Part shown: in pieces, positions 25,995 through 33,055 of the stretch
Layout of the letters: each line of letters opens with the position of its first letter
Position numbering within the stretch: position 1 is the first letter of the stretch
Assembly: GCA_026416035.1 (NCBI GenBank)
Contig: JAOAFY010000006.1
Span: 1-33,055 of the forward strand
Reading direction: 5' to 3'
Source of the DNA: Coriobacteriia bacterium
Lineage (GTDB): Bacteria > Actinomycetota > Coriobacteriia > Anaerosomatales > Anaerosomataceae
Length of the DNA stretch: 33,055 nucleotides
Notes under the pieces: model-generated
The model's database searches: none
What the model was told of the DNA's origin: nothing
The model's input: the letters and a program-made list of their open reading frames with translations, nothing else
Program-made: the position numbers and the translations under genes

Positions 25995-27647
25995 TCACAT
26001 CTTGCGACCGAGCATCTGGGCAAGCTCGCGCGGCTCTTGCGCCTTGCTCATGGCCTCCTCGTAGGTCACCTTTCCCGCCTGGACGAGCGCCTTGAGATGC
26101 TGGTCGAGCGTCTGCATGCCGAGCTGGGCGCCTCCCTGGATGATGGTCATCATCTGGTGGGTCTTGCCCTCGCGGATCAGGTTGCTGATTGCAGGGATGC
26201 CGAGCATGATCTCCATCGCCAGCACGCGGCTCTTGCCGTCTGCTGACCGCAGCAGCACCTGAGACAGGACGCCCTCGAGAGTCCCGGACAGCTGCATACG
26301 CACCTGCTGCTGCTGGTGCGGAGGGGACCCGTCGATGATGCGGTCGACCGTGGCCGGTCCGCCCGTCGTGTGCAGGGTCGCCAGCACGAGGTGTCCGGTC
26401 TCCGCTGCGGTGATCGCGGCCGAGATCGTCTCGAGGTCACGCATCTCGCCGACGAGGATCACGTCCGGGTCCTGACGCAAGACGCGCTTGAGCGCGGCGG
26501 CGAAGGAGTGAGTGTCCTCCCCCACCTCGCGTTGATTCACGTATGCCTTCTTGTTCCGATGCACGAACTCGATGGGGTCTTCGAGCGTGATGATGTGCAC
26601 GCGCCTCGTCTCGTTGATGTGGTCGATCATCGCCGCGAGGGTCGTCGACTTGCCTGATCCGGTCGGACCCGTCACGAGCACGAGACCGCGTGGCCGCTCG
26701 GCCAGGAACTTGCACACACGCGGCAGCCCGAGCGAATCCAGCGTCGGAATCGTCAACGGGATGACGCGGAAGACGGCGCCCATGGATCCCCGCTGCTGGA
26801 ACACGTTCGCCCTGAACCTCGACAGGCCAGGGATGCTGTACGCGAAGTCCAGCTCCAGCTCGGTCTCGAAACGCTTGCGCTGCTCTTCTGAGAGCAGGCT
26901 CAAGATCATCGCCTGCGTCTCCTTCGGAGACAGGGACTTGTACCCCTCAGCAGGGACGATCTCGCCACGCACTCGGATGCCTGGAGGGCTGCCCACCGTG
27001 ATGTGGAGGTCCGAGCCCCCCATGTCCAACATCAGCCGCAGTAGGTCGTCCACGTGCGGGATGTCGGCGCCGACCACAGCCGGGCCGGCAGCGGGCTTCG
27101 GCGCCGGAGCCGGTGCCTGCTCGCCGACGGGCTGCGGTGCGCCATAACCGCCCGGCCGTGACGCGAACGGAGACTCCTCTGGAAGTGGTTGCGGGACGCC
27201 ATAGGCGGCAGCCGTCGAACCTGCGGCCTCGGGGGCTGGTACCCCCTCAGGCTGAGCGACGCCCTCGCCGCCAGCCGACATCAAAGAGAACACCTTCTGG
27301 ACGAGCGTCGCTGCATCAGAGCTGGACGGCAGGTGGGCAGCTGCGCCGACCTGCCGAGCTCTGAGCGCTGTCGCTTCAGTCGGGTTGTTGACCACGATCA
27401 CGACCGGTATGTCCGCAAGCTCGTCATCCGCCTTGAGCTCCTGCGTCATCGTGAAGCCATCCATGCCAGCGAGGTCGCCGTCTGCGACGATCACGCTTGG
27501 ACGCTGCTGCTTGGCGACAGCAAGCGCCCGCATCGCCGAAGGCAGCGATCGTACGACTGCGTCGGGCACGACGCTTCTCAAAGCGCCCTCCATCCGCTCT
27601 GCGAAGGCGGGGTCATCGTGCACGACGAGGATGGTCGTCTCGCTCAC
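25995..27647 (-). CDS. Receiver-PilT fusion: type IV pilus retraction-type ATPase
   Basis: 550 residues. About residues 1-120 form a CheY-like receiver domain: acidic pair in VVHDDPAF, phosphoacceptor-position Asp in ADGDLAGMDGF. The usual Thr/Ser (now Asn in VVIVVNNPT) and the conserved Lys (LPSSSD) are missing, so it looks degenerate. A Pro/Ala/Gly-rich linker (about 125-190) follows. The rest is a complete PilT: Walker A VTGPTGSGKSTTLAAMIDHI at about 323, Asp box ITLEDPIEF, Walker B DPDVILVGEMRDLET, His box LATLHTTGG, and AISNLIREGKTHQMM (usual AIRNLIRE). PilT hexamers drive pilus disassembly. The GTG start follows AAAGGA. No pilin or pilB is nearby. Confidence 0.93.
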   Translation of the reverse strand: MSETTILVVHDDPAFAERMEGALRSVVPDAVVRSLPSAMRALAVAKQQRPSVIVADGDLAGMDGFTMTQELKADDELADIPVVIVVNNPTEATALRARQVGAAAHLPSSSDAATLVQKVFSLMSAGGEGVAQPEGVPAPEAAGSTAAAYGVPQPLPEESPFASRPGGYGAPQPVGEQAPAPAPKPAAGPAVVGADIPHVDDLLRLMLDMGGSDLHITVGSPPGIRVRGEIVPAEGYKSLSPKETQAMILSLLSEEQRKRFETELELDFAYSIPGLSRFRANVFQQRGSMGAVFRVIPLTIPTLDSLGLPRVCKFLAERPRGLVLVTGPTGSGKSTTLAAMIDHINETRRVHIITLEDPIEFVHRNKKAYVNQREVGEDTHSFAAALKRVLRQDPDVILVGEMRDLETISAAITAAETGHLVLATLHTTGGPATVDRIIDGSPPHQQQQVRMQLSGTLEGVLSQVLLRSADGKSRVLAMEIMLGIPAISNLIREGKTHQMMTIIQGGAQLGMQTLDQHLKALVQAGKVTYEEAMSKAQEPRELAQMLGRKM

Positions 27648-29372: not shown

Positions 29373-30089
29373 TCATTCCAGCTCGTCCGGCTCTGAGTCC
29401 AGACGCTCCTTGACCGCGATCAAGTCGACGACGATCTTGCGGCCCTTGGTCCGCACGAGACCTTCGCGAGCGAGCGCCGAGATGATCCTGCTCGCAGTCT
29501 CGCGCGAAACACCTGCCAGCGACGCGATCTCGGCGTGCGTGAACCCCTCGATCACCGGCACGCCTGATGATTCGTACGATGCCGTCGCGATGTTCAGCAG
29601 GACCCGCATCACGCGGTGATACGCGTCGTGGAACACGATGTCTTCGAGGCGGCCGATGAGCCCTCGCACTCTCCGGGACAGTGTCGCGATCAGGCTGACT
29701 GCGAGCTTCGGCTGGATCTGCACGGCAGCCGCCAGGTCGCGCGCATCGAGCATGAGCACCTCGACGTCTGTCACGGCTACGACGTCTGCAGACCGCGGCT
29801 CGGCGTCCACGACGCTCATCTCGCCGAAGTGAGCCGGCGCCTCGAGGTAGTCGAGGACGAGCTCCTTGCCCTGGCTCGAGGCGATGGCCACCTTCACGCG
29901 ACCAGCGATGAGCAGGTACATCGCCGTACCGGGCTGGTCCTGCGACACGATGTGGGTGCCTCTCGAGAAGCGCCTGTAGGTGAGCAGGCGTGCGAGCTTC
30001 GCCGCATCCTCGTCGGGAAGCCCAGCGAACGCAGGGAATGCGCGCACCCGTGCGAGCGTGGACTCGTCCGGCACCCTGGAACACCTCAC
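29373..30089 (-). CDS. Crp/Fnr family transcription regulator
   Basis: 238 residues. The N-terminal cyclic-nucleotide-binding-type barrel has FSRGTHIVSQDQPGTAMYLL and the phosphate cassette FGEMSVVDAEPRSADVVAV, whose Glu and Arg-Ser are those that bind cyclic nucleotides in Crp. A long helix leads to a winged helix-turn-helix, GFTHAEIASLAGVSRETASR. No N-terminal Cys set of the Fnr Fe-S type is present, only Cys3. It is therefore more likely to sense a nucleotide or other small ligand than oxygen. Starts are GTG 30089 or GTG 30074 (GAGGT eight bases ahead). It sits downstream of the big oxidoreductase, behind a hairpin. Confidence 0.92.
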   Translation of the reverse strand: MRCSRVPDESTLARVRAFPAFAGLPDEDAAKLARLLTYRRFSRGTHIVSQDQPGTAMYLLIAGRVKVAIASSQGKELVLDYLEAPAHFGEMSVVDAEPRSADVVAVTDVEVLMLDARDLAAAVQIQPKLAVSLIATLSRRVRGLIGRLEDIVFHDAYHRVMRVLLNIATASYESSGVPVIEGFTHAEIASLAGVSRETASRIISALAREGLVRTKGRKIVVDLIAVKERLDSEPDELE

Positions 30090-30128: not shown

Positions 30129-30164
30129 CGAAGGGCGCCGGATGTCACAACCCAGCGCCCTTCG
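30129..30164 (-). terminator. Terminator hairpin after the FAD/Fe-S oxidoreductase
   Basis: A perfect 10-pair stem (CGAAGGGCGC / GCGCCCTTCG) with a 16-base loop, 18 bases past the stop of the oxidoreductase. On the minus strand it is followed by TGTTTCAC, a short T-rich run. It separates the oxidoreductase from the Crp/Fnr gene. Confidence 0.65.
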
Positions 30165-30182: not shown

Positions 30183-33055
30183 CTACAGTTCGGTCTTCAC
30201 GTACTCGAGCATGCGCGGCAGGAAGTGCGGGATGACGAGCGGCAGCAGGTTCGGAAGCAGTGCGTCGAACGTCTTCGGCAGCAGATCGGGCATCAGCTCC
30301 GTCATGTCGTCCGGCAATGGCCCGACCCTCCGGGAAACCTCGCCCAGCATCGCGGGCATGACCTTCGGCATCATCGCAGGCATCATCGCAGGCATCATCT
30401 TCGGCATCATCGCGCCCATGAGCGACAGGCCGCCGGGTACAGACCGCATCGCCTTCATCATCGGCACCATGCCTGCCGGCATCGCCTTCATCATGTCAGG
30501 CAGCAGCGCCGCCATGATGTCTGCAACCGTCTCCGGCTTCATCAGGTAGATGAACTTCTCGAAGTAGCCCCACATCTCCATGGAGTACTCCGTCGGATCG
30601 GGGATGTCGATCCCGAGCGCCTCGGCGGCGACGTGCGCAAGGTCCACGACCGGGATGTCCAGCTCCTTCTTCGAGGCCGAGTCGCGCAGCTGCACCTGGC
30701 AGCAGGGGCACAAGGCGACCACGGCGTCTGCCTCGACGTCGAGAGCCTCGTCCAGCCGCATCTTGCCAAGTTCGGGGGCCACGGGAGTCTCGCCGATCAG
30801 CGTGAGCACGGAACCGCAGCACAAGCCATCGGCCCTGTTGTGCTCCATCTCCACGAGCTCCACTCCCGGGATCGCCTTCAGCATCTCCCGCGGAGGCTCG
30901 TACACGCCTTGAGCGCGCCCCATGTGGCACGAGTCGTGGAAGGTCAGGCGCTTTTCGATGGCACGGTCGAACTCGATGCGGCCGTCGGCGATCGCGTCGG
31001 CCACGAGCTCCGAGTAGTGCTTCACCTCGAACTCGTACCTCTCGCCTCGCTCGGCGGCCAGATTCGCGTAGAACTCCTTCCACACGAGGCCGCAGGCAGG
31101 GCACGAAGTGACGATCGTCTTGGCGCCCCGCTTGCGCGCCTCTGCGACGTTGTGCTCGTAGATCTCCTCGAAGACGTCCCACTTCCCGGCAACTTTCATG
31201 GGGATGCCGCAGCACGCTTCATCCGACCCCATGTAGGCGAACTCCACACCGGCACGGTCGAGGAGCTCCACGGTGGCCTTGGCCACGTCCGTGTTGACGT
31301 AGCTTGCCGTGCATCCAGCGAAGTACAAGACGTCGGCCTGCTCCTTGATCTTCGGCCGGATGTGCTCGGGCACCCAGTCGGCACGCTTCTCGCGCTTGCC
31401 CGCCCAGATGTTCTTCTGGCCTCTGAGCGCCGCAGCCATCATCTCGAAGGGCGGGAACGTCATCCGACCCTCTTCGTGGATCAGTCTGCCTCGCATCTCC
31501 ATCCAGGAATGCTCCACAGGAAGCTGCAGCTGGCAGCGCGTGTTGCACACCTCGCAGGTGGTGCACACAAGGAACTTGTCGACCATGGCCTGATCGAACT
31601 TCTCGCGACCCTCGATCACTTCACGCAGGTACAGGTACTTCCCGCGCGGCGAGTGGCTCATCCATCCCCGGACGGAGTACTCCTCGCATGTGGGGACGCA
31701 GTAGCCGCACTGGGCGCACGCGTATGCGTAGTACGCCACGTCTGCAGGGATGCCGTTGCGCTCCTTCGTCCCGACCGGGTCGCCCTTGGGCGGCTTCGCC
31801 GCGTTCGCGATCGGCCGGATGAGCGGCTCGAAGAGAAGCGCTGCCTTCATGAGAAGGTTCACGGCACCGGTACCCAGCACCTTCTTCGGGTTCATCACTC
31901 CGCGCGGATCGAACTGACGCTTGTAGCGCGCCAGGGCTGCGAGCTTCTGCTCGCCCAGCACGCTCGCGGCCTCCTGACGGAAGAACAAGCCGGTCGAATA
32001 CGCGCCGCCGCCATGCTTCTTCGCGATCTTGATGACGACGAGCGACAACGCGAAGGCGAGGTTGAACGCAAGCGAACGCTCGTCGTGCGGGATGAACCCC
32101 AGCAGCACGACCTTGTCGCCCTTCGATACCATGCCCTCAAGGACGAACGGCTGCCTGAGCGAGCGGTCGATCTCGTCGAGCACGTCCGCCAGCCGTTCGA
32201 GCGGGACGACCACCTCCGTCGGGACGATGGACGGACCGATCCGCTTGAGCCGCATCGGCGCGAAGCGCTGCTCCCACTCGTGCTCGGCCGTCTCAGCGTC
32301 AAGCTCGGTCCCGCCGTGCGAGCGGACGATGGCGTCGAACGGCGCGTCGACGGCGTGCCTCCTGGACTCGGGGTACGCGACGACCACCAGGAACGCCTCG
32401 GGCAGCTTCGGCTCGAAACCGGCGTGCGCCATCTCGTACGGATGTCCGTGCCGGTGAGGCAGACGCTTCTTCATGCGGACCGATTCGGGGTTCAAGAACG
32501 TGATCGACCAGATCGGGAGCCGCTGCACCGAGACATCACGAAGCGCCGCCGCCAGCGACGAAGCGTCCGGGAAGGCGATCAGCCGGTGGACTTCCGGCTC
32601 GTGCGCCCTGACAGGTATCACGACCTCGGTGATGATCCCGGTGATGCCCTCGGCGTCGGCGATGAGCAACTGCAGCTCGTCGCCCGAGCGCTCGCTCACA
32701 GACCCGTCAGGGGCGACGACGCGAGCGGATACCACGTTGTCCTTGAACCACCCGCGCTCGAACGAGCCGAAGCCCGCTCCGCCCTGTGCCAACCAGCCTC
32801 CCACCGTCGACGACGGCAGCGACGACGGATACATCACGAGGTCGAGCCCCCGCTTGAGCAGCTGCTTCTGGAGCTGCTCCCATATCGCCCCGGCCTGAAC
32901 GCGCACCGTCATGCTTGCCTCATCGACGTCGAGCAGCGCGTGCATCCCAGACATGTCGACGACGACTGCACCGGGCACGGGAAGCACGCCGCCGTAGCCG
33001 GAGGTGGACATGCCGCGCGGCACGAGGGGTATGCCGTGACGGCGCGCCAGGTTGA
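30183..33055 (-). CDS. FAD-linked oxidase / Fe-S / CCG-domain fusion oxidoreductase (5' end cut by window)
   Basis: About 956 residues are visible and the frame stays open through the right edge; its true start lies beyond it. Numbering from the GTG at 33023: FAD_binding_4 domain (PSSLPSSTVGGWLAQGGAGF at about 66), FAD-linked oxidase C domain, two [4Fe-4S] motifs (CAQCGYCVPTCEEY at about 437; CTTCEVCNTRC at about 488), then two GlpC/HdrD-type CCG modules (GCTASY...ACCG...CPAC at about 566-643; DSCHMG...LCCG...CPCC at about 697-776). It is a GlcD+GlcF-like dehydrogenase, perhaps for lactate or another 2-hydroxyacid, passing electrons to a quinone, ferredoxin or thiol acceptor; the substrate is unknown. 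The last 135 residues form an unusual Met/Pro-rich tail. Confidence 0.9.
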   Translation of the reverse strand, partial: NLARRHGIPLVPRGMSTSGYGGVLPVPGAVVVDMSGMHALLDVDEASMTVRVQAGAIWEQLQKQLLKRGLDLVMYPSSLPSSTVGGWLAQGGAGFGSFERGWFKDNVVSARVVAPDGSVSERSGDELQLLIADAEGITGIITEVVIPVRAHEPEVHRLIAFPDASSLAAALRDVSVQRLPIWSITFLNPESVRMKKRLPHRHGHPYEMAHAGFEPKLPEAFLVVVAYPESRRHAVDAPFDAIVRSHGGTELDAETAEHEWEQRFAPMRLKRIGPSIVPTEVVVPLERLADVLDEIDRSLRQPFVLEGMVSKGDKVVLLGFIPHDERSLAFNLAFALSLVVIKIAKKHGGGAYSTGLFFRQEAASVLGEQKLAALARYKRQFDPRGVMNPKKVLGTGAVNLLMKAALLFEPLIRPIANAAKPPKGDPVGTKERNGIPADVAYYAYACAQCGYCVPTCEEYSVRGWMSHSPRGKYLYLREVIEGREKFDQAMVDKFLVCTTCEVCNTRCQLQLPVEHSWMEMRGRLIHEEGRMTFPPFEMMAAALRGQKNIWAGKREKRADWVPEHIRPKIKEQADVLYFAGCTASYVNTDVAKATVELLDRAGVEFAYMGSDEACCGIPMKVAGKWDVFEEIYEHNVAEARKRGAKTIVTSCPACGLVWKEFYANLAAERGERYEFEVKHYSELVADAIADGRIEFDRAIEKRLTFHDSCHMGRAQGVYEPPREMLKAIPGVELVEMEHNRADGLCCGSVLTLIGETPVAPELGKMRLDEALDVEADAVVALCPCCQVQLRDSASKKELDIPVVDLAHVAAEALGIDIPDPTEYSMEMWGYFEKFIYLMKPETVADIMAALLPDMMKAMPAGMVPMMKAMRSVPGGLSLMGAMMPKMMPAMMPAMMPKVMPAMLGEVSRRVGPLPDDMTELMPDLLPKTFDALLPNLLPLVIPHFLPRMLEYVKTEL
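30351..30410 (-). repeat. Five 12-base tandem units coding a Met-Pro-rich tail
   Basis: Inside the oxidoreductase gene, five consecutive 12-base units encode the tetrapeptides MMPK, MMPA, MMPA, MMPK and VMPA (protein order). The DNA units differ mainly in the last codon (GCG versus AAG). The reading frame is kept, so this is a coding repeat and not a CRISPR or mobile element. Looser copies of the same theme flank it. Confidence 0.85.

Follow-up and report, generated by a model that had tools for sequence, protein, structure and literature searches.

Within the superfamily of iron-sulfur proteins that carry CCG modules, mycobacterial EtfD is the closest described system with a solved structure. 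The CCG modules of EtfD hold a linear [3Fe-4S] and a noncubane [4Fe-4S] cluster from which electrons go to menaquinone, and behind them lies a C-terminal region that is disordered and repeat-bearing, differs in length between species and is predicted to touch ETF (PMC13083937). The twin CCG architecture is also common to HdrB/HdrD, TfrB and GlpC, which have the same DLA..LG C-terminus. D-2-hydroxyacid dehydrogenases of the GlcD/GlcF and LctD types have in common a FAD_binding_4 / FAD-oxidase_C core and an Fe-S/CCG partner.

In this paper we describe a gene of a Coriobacteriia bacterium that fuses a flavin half and a twin-CCG half in one chain and adds a Met/Pro-rich C-terminal domain (here, the tail). 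"The window" denotes the whole stretch of DNA that was analysed, 33,055 nucleotides in length.

Gene and protein organization

The gene runs past the end of the window (Table 1); its full open reading frame has 998 codons (locus L002, 1184-4180), with the stop codon at 30183-30185 on the minus strand. An assembly gap (four X, XXXX in the translation) lies inside the gene at the window end (33044-33055; L002 4050-4070), and because orthologues carry a longer stretch at this place, the true N-terminal FAD region is longer than drawn.

Table 1. Features of the fusion gene and its immediate surroundings (positions in the window; residues of the window protein)
Feature	Position	Strand	Details
FAD / 4Fe-4S / CCG fusion oxidoreductase gene	30183..33055, extends beyond window	minus	C-terminal 956 residues inside window
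FAD_binding_4	32694..33050	minus	residues 2-120; Pfam PF01565, E 1.9e-29; N-terminal part past window
FAD-oxidase_C	31878..32582	minus	residues 158-392; Pfam PF02913, E 2.8e-14; lacks HxGDGNxH
Two 4Fe-4S motifs CxxCxxCxxxC	31521..31721	minus	residues 445-511; Pfam Fer4_17
First CCG module	31092..31313	minus	invariant Cys 581, 614, 615, 651, 654; Pfam CCG, 2 stretches
Second CCG module	30684..30944	minus	residues 704-790; invariant Cys 709, 745, 746, 782, 784, 785; Pfam CCG
Met/Pro-rich C-terminal domain	30186..30599	minus	138 aa, residues 819-956
Four shorter helices (predicted)	30441..30593	minus	residues 821-837, 840-849, 851-857, 862-871; AF2 DSSP
Long helix A (predicted)	30324..30431	minus	residues 875-910; tetrads AMMP KMMP AMMP AMMP KVMP; AF2 DSSP
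Long helix B (predicted)	30192..30311	minus	residues 915-954; tetrads ELMP DLLP ... ALLP NLLP LVIP HFLP; AF2 DSSP
12-bp tandem DNA array coding MMPx units	30367-30413	minus	Tandem Repeats Finder, 3.9 copies, 85% matches, score 73
Intrinsic-terminator-like hairpin	30129..30164	minus	15 pairs; just past gene end
CRP/FNR-type regulator, next gene downstream	29373..30089	minus	Pfam cNMP_binding + HTH_Crp_2; beyond hairpin

The flavin half belongs to the FAD_binding_4 / VAO-PCMH flavoproteins (FAD_binding_4 score 102.6 against a gathering score of 26.4 bits). The second half belongs to the twin-CCG Fe-S superfamily, with two Pfam CCG matches that have full Cys sets and Fer4_17 before them; the cysteines of the CCG modules and of the 4Fe-4S motifs are invariant in 54 sequences. 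The tail starts just beyond the second CCG module, Pfam CCG ending at residue 790 and the HdrB-like C-terminus near residue 820. A label of GlcF/HdrD, given in the earlier note, is apt for one part of a single-chain fusion that also has a GlcD-like part, but the protein stays below every NCBIfam equivalog cut-off listed: 98.6 against 567.9 bits for GlcD (TIGR00387; window protein without its N-terminus), 77 against 333 bits for GlcF (PRK11274), 165.9 against 385 for TfrB (NF004898), 152.1 against 800 for LdhH (NF045670) and 109.4 against 278 for GlpC (PRK11168).

The HxGDGNxH metal-site motif of D-LDH/D2HGDH was found in none of the 54 homologues and EHGxG in one; LEGMxxKGDxVVLLGFIPHDER and HGGxAYSTGL stand in their place, a replacement that is visible in the LDHD alignment. 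Since the subfamily lacks HxGDGNxH, a plain 2-hydroxy acid is probably not the substrate. In sequence, D-LDH and alkyl-DHAP synthase are about equally close to the FAD half; in fold, D-LDH comes first. Both the missing motif and the nearness to alkyl-DHAP synthase would suit a tail that shields a lipid-like 2-hydroxy acid or ether-lipid precursor, or guides it to the FAD site; we consider this very unlikely, however, as the tail lies behind the CCG modules, distant in sequence from the FAD site, and the metal motif may have changed for other causes.

Identity with the D-lactate dehydrogenase MA4631 of M. acetivorans was judged unlikely. In the paper on that enzyme MA4632 is the archaeosine tRNA-ribosyltransferase (PMC11619418). 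A related Methanosarcina (L139) has a separate GlcD-type gene of 496 aa that adjoins an archaeosine tRNA-ribosyltransferase-like ORF (by eye), and the tailed Methanosarcina gene lies several genes (about 5.5 kb) away from a TGT gene. By this indirect argument from gene order, which fits the short gene and not the tailed one, MA4631 is more likely the short, separate GlcD-type enzyme.

Distribution and gene neighbourhood

A scan of 84,980 species genomes gave 74 loci with the tail. The bacterial loci are in Coriobacteriia/Anaerosomatales, other Actinomycetota, Bacillaceae (Bacillus marasmi, Bacillus sp. DNRA2 and Neobacillus paridis), other Bacillota and one Chloroflexota MAG, and the archaeal loci are in Methanosarcina, Methanococcoides, Methanohalophilus and ANME-2, all Methanosarcinales. 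On every contig of sufficient length, the tail is the C-terminus of an FAD/CCG fusion of about 1000-1100 aa. With a tail profile, matches came from 50 of 199 genomes of the class, 27 of 296 genomes of the phylum and 79 of 150 genomes of the Methanosarcina class, on frames of about 1000 aa except at contig ends, in a few short fragments and in one copy that looks decayed. The latter, in the Methanosarcina class (G507:C6:22210-22536), has several in-frame stops and is apparently a pseudogene remnant. Divergent tails of Actinomycetota (E 1e-22 to 1e-29) keep the skeleton and are missing about ten C-terminal residues.

The tail is thus no peculiarity of one protein but the regular and common C-terminus of an FAD/CCG subfamily in bacteria and archaea, an outcome that the earlier note had listed as refuting. 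We define this subfamily by a 138-aa Met/Pro domain behind the second CCG module, and the window protein is a member. Judged from sequence, the tail appears to mark one subfamily of single-chain FAD/4Fe-4S/CCG oxidoreductases.

The CRP/FNR-type regulator is the next gene in 31 of the 74 loci, in Coriobacteriia and Bacillus. In 12 Methanosarcinaceae loci the tailed gene is preceded, at a distance of 61-349 nt, by a gene for a NapH-like membrane 4Fe-4S protein (e.g. L096 2448-3062), and in most of them a small HTH gene comes before that. This neighbour points to membrane electron transfer, but it was not found near bacterial copies of the tailed gene and therefore cannot be a universal partner.

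The same neighbour bears on a further explanation, that the tail serves as a platform for one particular partner protein, soluble or in the membrane (ETF, ferredoxin, the NapH-like protein or a cytochrome b), with a Met-rich groove like that of the SRP54 M domain. The M domain of SRP54 has Met-rich helices that form a flexible hydrophobic surface; Pro tetrads are, to our knowledge, absent from SRP54, and as the tail has no sequence or fold match to SRP54 the likeness serves as a lead only. The position of the NapH-like gene directly upstream in Methanosarcinaceae is consistent with such a platform, as is the predicted contact of the mycobacterial EtfD post-CCG region with ETF (PMC13083937). 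No partner gene is common to both domains of life, however, bacteria having the CRP-type regulator and archaea the NapH-like gene, and the EtfD tail, unlike the present one, is disordered and variable in length, so that we regard a dedicated partner platform as unlikely.

Other neighbours were recorded. Upstream of the gene and past the window, genes that by eye encode the small and large subunits of a NiFe hydrogenase, a cytochrome b and a maturation protease form a cluster (L002 5763-10004), and about 16 related loci have hydrogenase-like subunits near the tailed gene. Window positions 25995-27647 encode, by eye, a PilT-like ATPase whose N-terminal domain is receiver-like; it is a conserved neighbour in about 26 related loci.

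Composition, repetition and conservation of the tail

The last 138 residues contain 18.1% Met, 13.8% Pro, 13.0% Leu and 8.0% Ala, compared with 2.9% Met and 6.0% Pro in the remaining protein. The 12-bp array has the top Tandem Repeats Finder score in the window, and its core GGCATCATC is present in four copies in the array and five in the whole window (0.48 +/- 0.63 in shuffles). Composition, array and Pfam CCG limits together bear out the initial description of a Met/Pro-rich repetitive tail behind the second CCG module. The repetition is weak in the DNA and is mostly a Met/Pro lattice at the protein level.

The proposal that tandem DNA units permit fast length change did not survive comparison with relatives. 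Of 61 genomes of the order that were searched with the whole protein, most yielded full-length orthologues of near-constant size (about 2850-2883 nt), and the 25 order-level tails that were aligned (51-92% identity to the window tail) have no internal gap. When repeat number was compared between relatives, MMPx arrays of the same genus were identical in length and had many synonymous differences. Among four same-genus genomes dN/dS is 0.06-0.14 for the tail and 0.06-0.10 for the core; the tail is under purifying selection equal to that of the core. Because the tail omega equals that of the core, the MMPx length is constant and silent changes are many, the tandem DNA is a by-product of a selected protein pattern and not a length-variable tract. 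A functionless expansion of low-complexity DNA, which the 12-bp units in the window might suggest, has next to no chance of being correct, as it is refuted by the tail omega, by constant length in the order and by conservation between bacteria and archaea; a chance low-complexity tail was likewise rejected on omega and on this conservation.

In a 43-row tail alignment the fixed positions are mostly Pro and Met, and the polar residues between them are variable. In the numbering of that alignment P43, P87, P91, P125, P129, P137, P141 and P149 form an invariant Pro lattice, M61 and M102 are invariant, and M50, M57, M68, M69, M82, M86, M105, M120 and M132 are at least 90% conserved. The Met clusters (MMPxMMP) resemble the Met motifs of copper proteins, and binding of a metal such as copper through Met thioethers had been suggested. 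At many tail positions, however, Met is replaced by Leu, Ile or Phe, there is no His/Cys pattern, and no signal peptide, export context or nearby copper gene was noted, which makes metal binding extremely unlikely.

Predicted fold and possible function

AlphaFold2 predicts an all-helical structure for the tail alone (mean pLDDT 88.8, pTM 0.77), and the prediction is again confident in the whole protein (blocks 88-94, total pTM 0.82). The region of short helices contains the invariant residues W828, F831, L837 and P840, and both long helices are built from x-Phi-Phi-Pro tetrads (Phi = Met/Leu/Ile/Val/Phe). From column-averaged hydrophobicity, helix A has a hydrophobic period of 90 degrees, or 4.0 residues (permutation p < 0.001), and helix B one of 92 degrees, or about 4.0 residues (permutation p 0.002); these peaks are away from the usual 100 degrees, at which amphipathicity is weak over the full helices. 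The tail has a net charge of about -3 and is not strongly basic. No transmembrane helix is predicted in it (maximum KD19 1.27), and the tail would therefore be peripheral to a membrane at most.

Searched by itself, the tail has no significant match among the domains of Pfam and NCBIfam, the sequences and folds of the PDB or the viral folds of BFVD, in agreement with the original statement that no standard domain resembles it. Weak matches to Fe-hydrogenase (E 0.27) and to DUF6918 (E 0.17, 4 of 25 members) were treated as composition noise, and literature searches brought up no Met/Pro-rich tail on an enzyme of this kind. On the model, the tail is predicted to be a folded, all-helical domain of fixed length that is absent from the domain and fold libraries searched.

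We tentatively propose, with a probability of roughly 0.4, that the tail docks the enzyme at the membrane face, or at a hydrophobic partner there, and so brings the CCG cluster to quinone or methanophenazine. In the proposed mechanism four short helices would lead into the two long tetrad helices, in which Pro at every fourth residue would set an exact hydrophobic period of 4.0 residues, and because of this regular Pro a broad, Met-rich hydrophobic stripe would span most of the tail surface. The stripe would dock the soluble enzyme beside its second CCG cluster, and electrons derived from FAD could travel by way of the Fe-S and CCG clusters into the pool of menaquinone or methanophenazine, or run in the reverse direction. 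The indel-free Pro/Met lattice, the equal omega of tail and core, the constant, core-linked place, the confident AlphaFold2 fold and the 4.0-residue period all support docking, as do the NapH-like neighbour in Methanosarcinaceae and the electron transfer from EtfD to menaquinone. Methanosarcinales, to which the archaeal hosts of the named loci belong, use methanophenazine, and this too was counted for docking. Against docking are the net charge, the weak amphipathicity at 100 degrees, the absence of a NapH-like gene near bacterial copies and the existence of tail-less FAD/CCG paralogues.

As the chief alternative, the tail would make an oligomer or packing contact and would not touch the membrane: its two long tetrad helices would build the quaternary structure by pairing with their counterparts in another subunit, or would rest against the CCG modules as a structural cap. 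A supercoiled helix bundle would accommodate two matched long helices whose stripe repeats every 4.0 residues, exact length and invariant Pro/Met positions are as expected of a tight interface, and the pTM in full-length context is 0.82. Polar residues make up only about a quarter of each tetrad, however, which leaves more hydrophobic surface than one two-helix contact needs, and a homologous fold is absent from the PDB; we consider such a cap somewhat doubtful. Of the roles first suggested for the tail, docking at a membrane or a partner thus remains the best reading, while metal binding found no support. A wider form of the docking proposal, that the x-Phi-Phi-P tetrad domain is a monotopic membrane- or quinone-docking module common to menaquinone bacteria and methanophenazine methanogens, is possible and is held more loosely than docking itself.

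The 138-residue Pro/Met tetrad domain keeps its length in both bacteria and archaea and is undescribed in the public libraries searched. The oxidoreductase that it marks, in Methanosarcina, Methanococcoides, Bacillus, Neobacillus and Anaerosomatales, is uncharacterised. Understanding the domain's role would explain how a soluble FAD/CCG enzyme gains access to a carrier in the membrane and why at many positions Met is selected over Leu.

Comparison with known systems

Tail-less FAD/CCG paralogues are present in the same organisms (L140, L141 and L142; the two Coriobacteriia copies at 35-36% identity), and because they exist the tail is not needed for FAD/CCG chemistry in general. They have the same FAD-Fe-S-CCG order and end about 20-40 residues beyond the second CCG module. 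Those of Coriobacteriia (L141 2973-5645, L142 3170-5851) end in CxxCxxC (CEMCGACE / CDMCGGCK), another C-terminal device.

Compared with the GlcD/GlcF and LctD-type dehydrogenases, the present enzyme is fused in one chain and has no HxGDGNxH in 54 homologues. HdrB/HdrD, TfrB and GlpC stop where the present tail begins, and the scores of their models are far under the cut-offs. The nearest solved homologue of the Fe-S half is EtfD (Rv0338c / MSMEG_0690, PDB 9ojn), which likewise combines two 4Fe-4S motifs with two CCG modules on a single chain and has an extra C-terminal region behind the second CCG. EtfD differs, however, in having an N-terminal heme b domain with five TM helices and no FAD domain, and in contrast to the EtfD tail the present tail is predicted to be ordered and is fixed in length.
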